Of a DNA stretch of 32,281 nt, positions 8,830 through 28,487 are shown piece by piece. The translations under genes were made by a program, and so were the position numbers. The stretch lies in NCBI GenBank assembly GCA_030527665.1, contig JAUNAK010000028.1, positions 1 to 32,281 of the forward strand, given 5' to 3'. Source of the DNA: Eubacteriales bacterium (lineage in GTDB: Bacteria > Bacillota > Clostridia > Lachnospirales > Lachnospiraceae). Numbering within the stretch: position 1 is the stretch's first letter; every line of letters begins with the position of its first letter. Below the pieces are notes generated by a model that made no database searches, was not told where the DNA came from, and saw only the letters and a program-made list of their open reading frames with translations.

Positions 8830-10929
8830 ATGGAAGTTTACAGAACAGGTAGTATTAGAAACGTCGCAATTCTAGGTCACGGCGGTGCCGGAAAAACAAC
8901 TCTGGTAGAGGGTATGGCATATCTTTCCGGAATCACCAGCCGTCTCGGAAAAGTTGACGATGGCAATACCGTCAGTGATTATGATAAAGAAGAAATCAAG
9001 AGAAAATTTTCAATCAGCACCTCTGTAGTTCCGATCGAGTGGGAAAAATGCAAAGTTAACGTTCTGGATACACCGGGATTCTTTGACTTTGTAGGTGAGG
9101 CAGAGGAAGCTGCAGCAGCTGCAGATGCTGCTGTTATCGTTATTTCCGGTAAGTCCGGTGTAGAAGTTGGAACACAGAAAGCATGGGAGCTTTGTGAGAG
9201 ATACAACCTTCCGAGAATGTTTTTTGTAACAGAGATGGACATTGATGACGTTTCCTTCAGAAATGTAGTTCAGAAGCTGCAGGAGCTGTACGGCAAGAAG
9301 ATCGCTCCGCTGCATATGCCCATCCGTGAGAATGGAAAATTCATCGGCTATGTAAATATCGTTAAGAACAAAGGCCGCAGATATATTAATAAGAATGAAA
9401 AAGAAGAAATCGCCATTCCGGATTATCTGGAAGAGTATCTGGAGGAGTACAGAACCGCACTTCTTGACTCCGTAGCAGAAACCAGCGAAGAATTTATGGA
9501 CAGATATCTGGAGTCCGAGAATCCGGCAGAAGAGTTCTCTCCGACAGAGATTCTTTCCGCACTTGCAATCAATGTGGAGAGCGGAGATATGGTTCCGGTA
9601 TGTATGGGATCCCCGATCAATCTGCAGGGCGTTAAGATCCTTCTTGATGATATCGTTGGTTACTTCCCGGATCCGTCCAAGAGACAGCGTGCAGGTCTGG
9701 ACCGCAGCAGCAATACCGTATTTGATGCTGACTACGATTTTACACTTGCAAAGTCCGCTTCTGTCTGGAAGACAATCGCAGATCCGTTCCTGGGCAAATA
9801 TTCGCTGCTGAAGGTTTGCTCAGGCGTTCTGAAAACAAACGATGTACTGTACAACGTTACCCGTGACAGTGAAGAAAAACTCGGAAAACTGTATGTACTG
9901 TGCGGTAATAAACCGATCGAAGTTCCGGAGCTGCATGCCGGTGATATCGGTGCGGTAGCAAAACTGCAGAGTGTGAAGACCGGCGATTCTTTTGCAACAA
10001 AAGATCATCCGATTGACTATGGTACAGTGATCGTATCCAAACCGTATACAGCTAAGAGATACAAACCGCTGAATAAACAGGATGTCGATAAAGTTGCACA
10101 GGGACTTGCAAGACTGCAGGATGAGGATCTGACACTGAAGGTTGTCAATGATTCCGCGAACCGCCAGTCTCTGATCTATGGTATCGGCGATCAGCAGATC
10201 GATGTTGTTGCAAGCAAACTGAAAGAACGCTACAAAGTTGACATCGAGCTGTCTCAGCCGAAGGTGGCTTTCCGTGAGACCATCCGTAAGGTGGCCGATG
10301 TGGATTCCAAGTATAAGAAACAGTCCGGCGGACATGGACAGTACGGTCATGTAAAGATGCGCTTTGAGCCGTCCGGTGATCTGGAGAGTGCATATGTATT
10401 TGAAGAAGAAGTAGTCGGCGGTGCTGTTCCGAAGAACTTCTTCCCGGCAGTAGAAAAAGGTCTTGCTGATTCTGTTGAGTCCGGACCGCTGGCTGCATAT
10501 CCGGTCGTTGGTGTAAAGGCTGTTCTTTATGATGGATCCTATCATCCGGTAGACTCCTCCGAGATGGCATTCAAGACAGCTACAAAGATGGCATTCAAAG
10601 ACGGATTTATGAAAGCGAATCCGGTTCTTCTTGAGCCGATCGTTAACCTGAAGGTTACAGCACCGGATACCTATACCGGCGATATCATGGGCGATCTGAA
10701 CAAACGCCGCGGCCGTGTACTGGGAATGACTCCGGATAAGAGCGGAATCACCGTTGTTGAGGCTGATATCCCGCAGCTGGAGCTCTATGGCTACTGCAAT
10801 ACCCTTCGTTCCATGACCGGTGGAGCAGGTGTATTCGAGTATGAGTTTGCAAGATATGAGCAGGCTCCGTCCGATGTACAGCAGAAGCAGATCCAGGAGC
10901 GCGCAAGCAAAGTCAAAGATATCGAGTAA
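8830..10929 (+). CDS. Elongation factor G paralogue (EF-G2-like) with altered GTPase motifs
   Basis: A 699-residue five-domain translation factor of the EF-G family. The P-loop GHGGAGKTT is at residues 16-24. Switch I reads KRKFSIS where canonical EF-G has RGITI. Switch II reads DTPGFFDF (from D80), so the catalytic histidine of DTPGHxDF is phenylalanine. The base-recognition NKxD is TEMD at 134-137. Domain IV is present (GGHGQYGHVKMRFEP), as are the LEPI...GDIMGDLNKRRGRVLGM segment of domains IV/V and a C-terminal domain V. The start at 8830 follows GGAGG by 8 nt; an upstream in-frame ATG at 8779 lacks a site. It is a separate transcription unit, not in an rpsL-rpsG-tuf operon, so it is a paralogue and not the housekeeping fusA. 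Its role may be specialised translation or ribosome rescue under particular growth conditions; this is inferred. Confidence 0.85.
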   Translation: MEVYRTGSIRNVAILGHGGAGKTTLVEGMAYLSGITSRLGKVDDGNTVSDYDKEEIKRKFSISTSVVPIEWEKCKVNVLDTPGFFDFVGEAEEAAAAADAAVIVISGKSGVEVGTQKAWELCERYNLPRMFFVTEMDIDDVSFRNVVQKLQELYGKKIAPLHMPIRENGKFIGYVNIVKNKGRRYINKNEKEEIAIPDYLEEYLEEYRTALLDSVAETSEEFMDRYLESENPAEEFSPTEILSALAINVESGDMVPVCMGSPINLQGVKILLDDIVGYFPDPSKRQRAGLDRSSNTVFDADYDFTLAKSASVWKTIADPFLGKYSLLKVCSGVLKTNDVLYNVTRDSEEKLGKLYVLCGNKPIEVPELHAGDIGAVAKLQSVKTGDSFATKDHPIDYGTVIVSKPYTAKRYKPLNKQDVDKVAQGLARLQDEDLTLKVVNDSANRQSLIYGIGDQQIDVVASKLKERYKVDIELSQPKVAFRETIRKVADVDSKYKKQSGGHGQYGHVKMRFEPSGDLESAYVFEEEVVGGAVPKNFFPAVEKGLADSVESGPLAAYPVVGVKAVLYDGSYHPVDSSEMAFKTATKMAFKDGFMKANPVLLEPIVNLKVTAPDTYTGDIMGDLNKRRGRVLGMTPDKSGITVVEADIPQLELYGYCNTLRSMTGGAGVFEYEFARYEQAPSDVQQKQIQERASKVKDIE

Positions 10930-26857: not shown

Positions 26858-27412
26858 ATGGACGCTAGACTGAAAGTTTATGAAGAGAAGATGAATAAGA
26901 CACTTGCAAACCTGGCAAGTGAATTCGGAACCATCCGTGCAGGTCGTGCAAACCCGCATGTACTGGATCGTATTACTGTAGATTATTACGGAACAGCAAC
27001 ACCGCTGAATCAGGTGGCTAATATCACTGTTCCGGAAGCAAGAATGATCCAGATCCAGCCCTGGGAGGCATCTCTGGTAAAAGAGATCTGCAAGGCAATC
27101 CAGATGTCCGATCTGGGTATCAACCCGAGCACAGACGGAAAAGTGATCCGTCTGATTTTCCCGGAGCTTACCGAGGAGCGCCGTAAACAGCTGAGCAAGG
27201 ATGTTAAGAAGAAAGGTGACGAGGCTAAGGTCGCTGTCCGCAACATTCGTCGTGACGGCAACGATGCATTCAAGAAGCTGGAGAAAACAGAGGATGTATC
27301 CGAGGACGTAGTAAAAGAGCTGCAGGATGATCTTCAGAAGCTGACTGACAAATTTGTGAAACAGATCGACAAAGATGTCGAAGAGAAAACAAAGGAAATC
27401 ATGAAAGTCTGA
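26858..27412 (+). CDS. frr: Ribosome recycling factor
   Basis: A 184-residue, tRNA-shaped factor that splits post-termination ribosomes together with EF-G. Diagnostic segments are [55 protein letters not shown] and the C-terminal helix with [17 protein letters not shown]. The length is standard. GGAGGGGG precedes the ATG, 27 nt after pyrH. A strong terminator follows, so transcription of uppS and later genes probably depends on read-through or a further promoter. Confidence 0.97.
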
Positions 27413-27433
27413 TCATAACGGCTGGGATTGATA

Positions 27434-27466
27434 GACTCCGGGCAGAAGTCTGCCCGGAGTCTTTTG
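27434..27466 (+). terminator. Terminator after frr
   Basis: GACTCCGGGCAGA (27434-27446) and TCTGCCCGGAGTC (27449-27461) form an up to 13-bp stem with a very short loop, followed by TTTTGTT. Its last six stem bases (27456-27461) are also the first bases of the closing stem of the structured element at 27456-27640, so the two cannot form fully at once. Confidence 0.85.
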
Positions 27467-27640
27467 TTATGAAAGTCTGCGATGCAGACATAACAGAGCC
27501 GTGCCTGCACGAGCGAAGTTATGTCTATAGCGCAGACAAGACAACATGAGCATGAAGGTCGAAAGACCGAAATGCGAATGTTGTCGGCGATTACGGGAGC
27601 GTGGAACGCGGAATAATCGCTTTACATGACAAAAGACTCC
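27456..27640. ncRNA. Candidate multibranch structured RNA or palindromic element between frr and uppS
   Basis: The ends GGAGTCTTTTGTTATG (27456-27471) and CATGACAAAAGACTCC (27625-27640) pair over 16 positions with one G-U. Inside are three adjacent hairpins. The first is 27475-27537. In the second (27540-27585) GACAACAT pairs with ATGTTGTC, GCAT with ATGC and GGTC with GACC; these are separated by symmetric GA/GA and GAA/GAA internal loops and capped by a GAAA tetraloop. The third (27587-27620) has a GCGATTA/TAATCGC outer stem and an inner GCG/CGC. Linkers are only 3, 2, 1 and 4 nt. No plausible coding frame covers it. It may be a structured RNA, a cis-regulatory leader for uppS, or a MITE-like palindromic insertion. 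Confidence 0.55.
27475..27537. repeat. Structured palindromic repeat, copy B (related to 12988-13050)
   Basis: This is the first hairpin of the multibranch element. GTCTGCG (27475-27481) pairs with CGCAGAC (27531-27537), AGACATAAC (27486-27494) with GTTATGTCT (27518-27526), and CGTG with CACG at the tip (27500-27511). An AGA/GAA internal loop lies between the middle stem and the tip. It is the intact counterpart of the diverged copy after ilvE; both have the same overall length and both follow a terminator. Confidence 0.65.
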
Positions 27641-27646
27641 ATGGAT

Positions 27647-27715
27647 GCGCACTCGCGCGAAAGGAAAATATCGCGAAGCAATCGCGCTCGGCGCTGAATG
27701 TGCCAAGGCACATTC
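27647..27715. repeat. GC-rich hairpins between the multibranch element and uppS
   Basis: GCGC (27647-27650) with GCGC (27691-27694) and GCGCGA (27655-27660) with TCGCGC (27682-27687) can form one hairpin that contains the self-complementary TCGCGA (27671-27676). GAATGTGC (27696-27703) and GCACATTC (27708-27715) form a perfect second hairpin with a CAAG loop, about 46 nt before the uppS start. No T-tract follows. Together with the element upstream, nearly the whole 348-nt frr-uppS gap is foldable. Confidence 0.5.
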
Positions 27716-27761
27716 TATTGTTATAAAAGTTTGCATTTACTGTTAAAAAGGAGATATATGG

Positions 27762-28487
27762 ATGTCTGAACAATATACAGAGGATTTAAAGCTTCCGCAG
27801 CATATTGCCATTATTCTGGACGGAAACGGACGATGGGCGAAGAAACGGAAAATGCCGCGCGGGTACGGACACATTGTCGGCTGTGACAATCTGGAGAAAA
27901 TGTGTGATATTATTGCAGATATGGGAATCAAATATCTTACCGTATATGCATTTTCTACCGAGAACTGGAAGCGTTCGGAGGAAGAGGTCAAGGGCTTGAT
28001 GGATCTTTTCCGTAAATATCTGAAACGCTGTCTGAAAAAGGCAAAACGCAACCAGATGCGTATTCGTATCATCGGCGATCCGTCTGCACTGGATGCGGAT
28101 ATTCAGGAGTCGATCCGGGTTTTGGAGGAGTCCACAAAGGATTATGACCGGATGTTTTTCCAGATTGCTCTGAATTACGGAGGACGGGACGAGATCGAGC
28201 GTGCGGTAACAAAGATCGCTGAGGATGCAAGATCCGGTAAGCTTCCGGAAGGAAGAATTACAGGCGAGGTGTTTGAGCAGTATCTGGATACGGCAGGCAT
28301 TCCTGACCCCGATCTGATGATTCGAACCAGCGGAGAACTGCGTTTGTCCAACTTCCTGCTCTGGCAGCTGGCATATTCCGAATTCTATTTCACCGATGTA
28401 CCTTGGCCGGACTTCAACAGAGATGAGCTGATGAAAGCAATCGAGAAATACAACGGCCGCGATCGGCGTTTCGGAGATGCAAAATAA
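27762..28487 (+). CDS. uppS: Isoprenyl transferase (undecaprenyl diphosphate synthase)
   Basis: A 241-residue cis-prenyltransferase that extends farnesyl diphosphate with isopentenyl units to the C55 carrier used for peptidoglycan and other envelope polymers. The start motif IAIILDGNGRWAKKR holds the catalytic D20 and the G21-N22-G23-R24 pyrophosphate loop. Also present are TVYAFSTENWKRS, NYGGRDEI and the C-terminal PDLMIRTSGELRLSNFLLWQLAYSE. The start at 27762 is chosen because AAAAAGGAGA precedes it and the ATG at 27758 hits a stop after three codons. It supplies the lipid carrier, while dxr two genes later supplies its isoprene precursors. Confidence 0.96.
   Translation: MSEQYTEDLKLPQHIAIILDGNGRWAKKRKMPRGYGHIVGCDNLEKMCDIIADMGIKYLTVYAFSTENWKRSEEEVKGLMDLFRKYLKRCLKKAKRNQMRIRIIGDPSALDADIQESIRVLEESTKDYDRMFFQIALNYGGRDEIERAVTKIAEDARSGKLPEGRITGEVFEQYLDTAGIPDPDLMIRTSGELRLSNFLLWQLAYSEFYFTDVPWPDFNRDELMKAIEKYNGRDRRFGDAK

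Follow-up and report, generated by a model that had tools for sequence, protein, structure and literature searches.

The structured element that lies between frr and uppS in the stretch of Eubacteriales bacterium DNA analysed here (32,281 nucleotides; hereafter the window) is likely to belong to a MITE family, entered in Rfam as Clostridiales-1 RNA (RF01699), with a fold that is kept as DNA; the copy here is old and probably no longer moves. The family itself was already known from Rfam, and what is new here is the evidence for a transposon with a DNA-level fold. Its members are dispersed, vary in presence and absence at uppS loci, form clusters on one strand, and share a conserved fold in which wobble pairs are scarce; complete copies in related genomes have inverted ends and 5-bp target duplications.

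The preliminary description had placed a closed multibranch element at 27456-27640 (+), and this fold is real: the predicted structure has a free energy of -92.8 kcal/mol (z -12.2), and none of 200 shuffles of the same stretch (-44.7 +/- 3.9 kcal/mol) folded as low. The predicted fold also reproduces the details that had been given, namely a closing stem of 16 bp in which one pair is G-U, three hairpins inside it joined by linkers of 0-3 nt, and GA/GA and GAA/GAA internal loops together with a GAAA loop in hairpin 2 (Table 1). In the copy of the element in the window, 3 of the 57 predicted pairs are G-U, which counts somewhat against a fold kept as DNA. The minus strand folds well too (-82.6 kcal/mol, z -11.1), and about half of the difference between the strands is a matter of base composition.

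Table 1. Features of the frr-uppS region; positions are those of the window
Feature	Position	Strand	Evidence or remark
frr, ribosome recycling factor	26858..27412	+	PF01765, E 8.5e-70
frr intrinsic terminator	27433..27466	+	terminator scan; stem 27433-27462
Left arm, outer part of 16-bp stem	27456..27466	+	3' arm of frr terminator and T tract; outside model 1-166
Clostridiales-1 element (RF01699), full-length copy, four-way junction	27467..27629	+	cmscan 108.8 bits, E 4.4e-24
Hairpin 1 of element	27475..27537	+	predicted fold; inverted repeat I2
Hairpin 2, GA/GA and GAA/GAA internal loops	27540..27585	+	predicted fold; inverted repeat I3
Hairpin 3	27586..27621	+	predicted fold; helices 6 and 7 of family alignment
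Right arm, outer part of 16-bp stem	27630..27640	+	R2 leader; resembles R2 leader of G009, ACAAAACGCTCCGC, by eye
R2, second dispersed repeat	27643..27724	+	no overlapping Rfam family at E <= 1
Terminator-like hairpin at R2 end	27696..27715	+	terminator scan, predicted fold
Direct repeat, 86% to 27460-27480	27714..27734	+	repeat search (D1)
uppS, undecaprenyl diphosphate synthase	27762..28487	+	PF01255, E 3.1e-85

A covariance search of the whole window against Rfam returned a single match over threshold, to RF01699, which spans 27467-27629 (+) and the complete model (positions 1-166 of 166) with 108.8 bits against a cut-off of 48. With the covariance model built here, the training set of which includes the window copy, this copy scores 109.4 bits. 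The preliminary description recognised no known riboswitch; the element belongs to a catalogued sRNA family, which comes from a 2010 survey. The table of that survey, which gives Clostridiales as the source group, rates Clostridiales-1 as 'probably' RNA, and considers both a cis-regulatory role and a riboswitch improbable (PMC2864571). The preliminary description had also envisaged that a known terminator-only or repeat family might be matched, and a known family was indeed matched, but as an sRNA and not as a terminator family. Among open-access papers that name Clostridiales-1 or RF01699 in their full text, none is by its title concerned with function, and among the titles and abstract openings that literature searches brought up, none treats Clostridiales-1 as a mobile element.

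The extent of the element had to be redrawn: the fold covers 27456-27640, whereas the conserved element is 27467-27629 only. The outer 11 bp of the closing stem were rejected as part of it, as they lie outside the Rfam model, are the longest extension among 160 copies, and have arms that are the frr terminator on one side and R2 on the other. In those 160 Clostridiales-1 copies, exact pairing beyond the model amounts to 0-2 bp in 122 and reaches its maximum of 11 in the window copy only. Judged by its sequence, the outer stem is a chimera of the end of the frr terminator and the leader of R2. In G009, the genome with the closest UppS among those searched (83%), a similar hairpin stands behind frr and the element is absent from that place (gaps compared by eye).

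R2 is a second dispersed repeat, for which 17 genomes were searched: there are 3 matches in the window's own genome (the window's included), at least 34 in G009, where 40 of the 52 candidates received a score, and the 15 others have none. The window reads GACAAAAGACTCC...GGATGCGCAC where R2 copies of G009 read, for example, GACAAAACGCTCCGC.GGATGCGCAC (by eye). In the copies retrieved (L445-L474), a variable hairpin comes first, then AAAANGCTCC, then a core rich in G and C, and last a hairpin like that of a terminator; several of those looked at stand directly behind a T tract. Taken as a whole, R2 of the window has a fold little better than those of its shuffles (z -1.65); the direct repeat at its end (27714-27734) could be what is left of the beginning of another tandem copy. 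We also note that elsewhere in the same genome (L004:1460-1667; G000:C10, near the R2 match at 9170-9250) R2 is followed by a shortened Clostridiales-1-like copy, that an exact direct repeat of 19 bp lies on either side of the two and doubles as an arm of a palindrome resembling a terminator, and that on the minus strand of 27467-27736 in the window a mechanical open frame of 89 aa runs across the element and R2.

The fold is conserved across the family. In the covariance-model alignment, which was used instead of a MAFFT/RNAalifold alignment that missed P1 and part of hairpin 1, 87.6% of the cells are paired over 120 distinct copies and 61 pairs, and in hairpin 3 the figures are 95.4% for helix 6 and 99.3% for helix 7; here and in the counts of pair types, identical rows were counted once. 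Changes on both sides of a pair occupy 1817 cells, compared with 560.6 +/- 19.0 in shuffles and at most 564 with slid partners, an excess so large that the fold must be regarded as really conserved, and the idea that many copies might show no covariation can be dropped. Conservation is not confined to paired columns: in an alignment of 49 copies (six weak or cut matches of the window's own genome, L030-L035, and identical copies left out), the GA/GA loop of hairpin 2 lies within nearly invariant ATGAG...CGAAT columns, while the apical part of that hairpin varies from copy to copy, the GAAA loop included.

These unpaired columns bear on the proposal that the covariation has no function, that templated (quasipalindrome) repair keeps the hairpins perfect and that the elements are neutral debris. 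Such repair would account for consensuses that are nearly perfectly Watson-Crick and for a stem that in the window reaches 11 bp into flanks outside the family; however, it should erase internal loops, and across the 49 copies there is little or no variation at ATGAG...CGAAT and further unpaired positions. We therefore consider this proposal improbable.

The types of base pair are unusual for an RNA. Over 156 distinct copies we counted 7602 Watson-Crick, 239 G-U and 180 A-C cells and 912 other mismatches. Among voted pairs, G-U makes up 3.0% and A-C 2.2% in Clostridiales-1 (49 copies), compared with 10.1% and 0.8% in RNase P RNA (30 loci) and 8.2% and 0.2% in TPP riboswitches (29 of 30 loci, L319 left out) of related genomes, so that the ratio of G-U to A-C is 1.34 for Clostridiales-1 and 11.9 and 34 for the two controls. 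In predicted folds, G-U accounts for 2.8% of the pairs in Clostridiales-1, 10.8% in RNase P and 12.8% in TPP, the controls here being RNAs only. Because copies may merely decay after insertion, the count was repeated on cluster consensuses. For this, 149 of 161 copies were kept (145-185 nt, no N) and 78 of the 149 were used, in 11 clusters with at least three members, the window copy falling outside them; the 11 consensuses contain 9 G-U in 687 pairs (1.3%), and private changes relative to them created 72 G-U and 47 A-C. In this tally, as in the one over 156 copies, G-U is still slightly commoner than A-C, a point against the DNA reading. With G-U nearly absent, the pairing does not look like RNA pairing. 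So strict an avoidance of G-U is not what one expects from selection on an RNA; it is expected of a palindrome that is maintained as DNA or that is read from both of its strands, and the structure looks to be kept as Watson-Crick DNA and not as RNA. The suggestion of a structured RNA made in the preliminary description agrees with how Rfam classes the family but fits poorly with how its members pair.

The same counts weigh on a second alternative, in which the mobile element carries a genuine small RNA: the + strand would be transcribed, and the folded RNA would act in trans or shield mRNA ends. The Rfam type (sRNA), the 'probably' RNA of the 2010 survey table (PMC2864571) and the strong covariation are all in keeping with this possibility. 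However, G-U at 1.3-2.8% against 10.8-12.8% in the RNA controls, with A-C nearly as common as G-U, speaks against it, as do two features of its genomic setting: a scan of the + strand of the window at 27380-27790 found no promoter-like site, and copies occur in all four arrangements relative to the neighbouring genes.

Those arrangements are not equally frequent. With one copy per locus they number 45 (>E>), 23 (<E>), 17 (<E<) and 13 (>E<), so that elements tend to point the same way as the next gene: in 68 of 98 cases the gene on the right runs in their direction (80 of 119 without thinning); the associated p of 1.6e-4 is a guide, since the genes are mechanical frames of at least 100 aa and the copies within a genome are not fully independent. 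In addition, the + strand folds better in all 11 cluster consensuses, partly through base composition, and the conserved loops are asymmetric between the strands. The bias beside genes and the better + fold are points in favour of a small RNA, as are its G-CUUG-C and purine-rich loops, which are familiar in RNA. Strand bias, + fold and asymmetric loops would fit some effect at the RNA level, exerted within the transcript of the host, for which the bias in particular speaks, or else a folded DNA strand being favoured over the other. We judge a small RNA unlikely. Of the 161 copies, 21 lie inside a mechanical frame of at least 100 aa, and one copy (G008:C18:142545-142954) adjoins a match to the TPP riboswitch, below cut-off, on the same strand.

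Complete copies, found in G015, G017, G008, G023, G002, G005, G006 and G010, extend past the Rfam model: beyond it they have a further tail, and they begin and end with inverted TGAT...ATCA ends of 18 nt that are imperfect. A rule for such ends selected 34 of 161 distinct copies, a set that keeps two rows (L093, L022) with apparently misplaced ends. An exact 5-bp target duplication flanks 22 of the 34, compared with 0.97 expected on swapping partners; at other lengths, exact matches number 0 at 3 bp, 0 at 4 bp and 2 at 6 bp. All 22 duplications read TNNNA, with A before in 21 and T after in 20, from which the target is ATNNNAT. Two derivatives of ~70 bp (L189, L191) retain both ends and duplication (by eye).

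The window copy has no target duplication at the ends of the model, where its flanks are TTTTG and CAAAA, and all that it has by way of inverted ends is the short closing stem. By eye it is like other copies of its genome that have GAAAG-type ends, at which no target duplication was seen either, and it is for this reason best taken as an old copy. The earlier suggestion of a MITE-like repeat is accordingly borne out for the family, by copy number, inverted ends and 5-bp duplications, and is not shown for the window copy itself.

A parent transposon did not emerge. None was among the matches of end-pattern scans in G017, G023, G008, G018, G015 and G000 (20 places inspected around the end motif, the remaining matches as list rows), and none of 20 rve or DDE_Tnp_1 loci, from five of the six genomes searched for these two transposase families, has the ends of the element; in G017, with its many fresh copies, neither rve nor DDE_Tnp_1 was matched at E <= 1e-5. 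G002 and G008 have a stretch of 1.66 kb in common with a TGAT-like motif close by, which was dropped as a candidate, since the motif lies ~120 bp inside the stretch. We likewise set aside promoter capture, through a TATAA-like duplication joined to the T of the element, for which the copies are too few to make a claim: the left junction reaches a promoter score of at least 9 of 12 in 14 of 58 copies, and among the 34 complete copies 8 do so at the left junction, against 4 at the right junction when this is read in reverse.

The family is abundant in the window's own family of bacteria. The window's genome holds 13 RF01699 matches over cut-off, some of them partial. Among 61 genomes searched, 32 have matches at E <= 0.001 and 26 over cut-off; at E <= 0.001 these include 30 of 37 genomes of the window's family, against 2 of 24 in the other families of the order. 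The copy counts from this search are lower bounds, as scoring stopped at 38 candidates in any one genome. With all candidates scored, G008 yielded 35 matches at E <= 0.001 (26 over cut-off) and G057, a single contig, 19 (10 over cut-off). At loci with several copies, all lie on one strand in 27 of 27, and none mixes strands.

The position of the window copy, between frr and uppS and downstream of a terminator, is what might lead one to a cis-regulatory leader of uppS, as the preliminary description had proposed among other readings. However, a match over cut-off is missing from 14 of the 15 other uppS loci examined, and frr was identified as the neighbouring gene at 14 of these 15, so that related gaps without the element, which that description had named as refuting evidence, do exist. 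The sole other uppS locus with a copy over cut-off, in G005, has it on the opposite strand, and that copy belongs to a cluster of ten, whereas at 85% the window copy has no cluster partner. The family also has copies at numerous further sites, both in this genome and in its relatives. A leader or riboswitch of uppS was rejected on this pattern of presence and absence, which would leave at most an effect peculiar to this strain, and the leader has in our view hardly any chance of being correct.

One module of the fold is found more widely. Among the 80 matches listed in a search for the hairpin-2 motif, 20 were searched with the model, of which 11 contained a copy and the other 9 had the motif alone or a chance match, the latter probably the case for a Terriglobia record (L379). 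As to carriage by phages, viral contigs yielded 0 matches to an exact hairpin-2 pattern. In Eubacterium ramulus (L345, L363, L374) a different multi-hairpin repeat has the same module (CATGAGCAAGTAG...GCGGATTGCGAATG), which therefore seems common to different elements. The module also occurs in a stretch of ~310 bp from Roseburia faecis, two Blautia species and a Eubacterium sp. (L382, L393, L403, L358), nearly the same in three species and represented by its second half only in the fourth; a frame downstream of it resembles what we take to be TnpV of mobilisable transposons.

Taken as a MITE, the element would be moved through its TGAT...ATCA ends by a cut-and-paste (DDE-type) transposase supplied in trans. 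The multibranch interior may be kept as Watson-Crick DNA, either as an extruded cruciform or as one folded single strand, and the fold would presumably be needed for pairing the ends or for binding a protein. Once inserted, a copy would stay mostly idle and then decay. The window copy would have settled behind the frr terminator and beside R2, its borders forming the extended closing stem by chance or by templated repair. A more far-reaching version, to which we would give somewhat less than an even chance, is that the RF01699 family is made up not of RNAs but of copies of a transposon that depends on its structure: four-way-junction DNA, with Watson-Crick covariation across Lachnospiraceae-like genomes, that is read as a folded strand by a trans-acting transposase or recombinase and can build head-to-tail arrays.

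These possibilities matter beyond one locus. Rfam models annotate genomes automatically, and if the family is mobile DNA, the 'sRNA genes' so called are transposon copies. Counting G-U against A-C in covarying pairs, with RNAs of related genomes as a reference, costs little and can tell pairing at the DNA level from pairing at the RNA level; if our reading is true, the same count could unmask further 'RNAs' in the catalogue. It also becomes a testable question why a transposon of ~200 bp has a four-way fold and invariant internal loops.

To place the element among known systems, we compared it with four of them. It is the same as RF01699 Clostridiales-1 in its full-length match and fold; the Rfam model, however, is listed as an sRNA gene, and complete copies are longer, with a tail that contains an inverted end, and have target duplications. 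With MITEs (non-autonomous bacterial DDE transposons) it shares short size, high copy number, inverted ends and a duplication of fixed length, and it differs from them in its conserved multibranch interior with covariation and in that no parent transposase was found. REP/BIME-type intergenic palindromes are dispersed, clustered and hairpin-rich, and Clostridiales-1 is like them in all three respects; we know of no target duplication or TGAT ends in REP/BIME, and these set Clostridiales-1 apart. Integron attC sites, which are structured single-stranded DNA, resemble it in that their positions covary as in an RNA although it may be the DNA that works. OTH-22-1, a motif that came out of a search for RNAs, has been assigned to this structured single-stranded DNA kind before (PMC8632094). 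Clostridiales-1 shows the preference for Watson-Crick over wobble pairs expected of structured DNA, with 1.3% G-U in its consensuses and RNAs as the only controls. To our knowledge, attC insertion makes no target duplication, and it is in its 5-bp duplication that Clostridiales-1 differs from attC sites.
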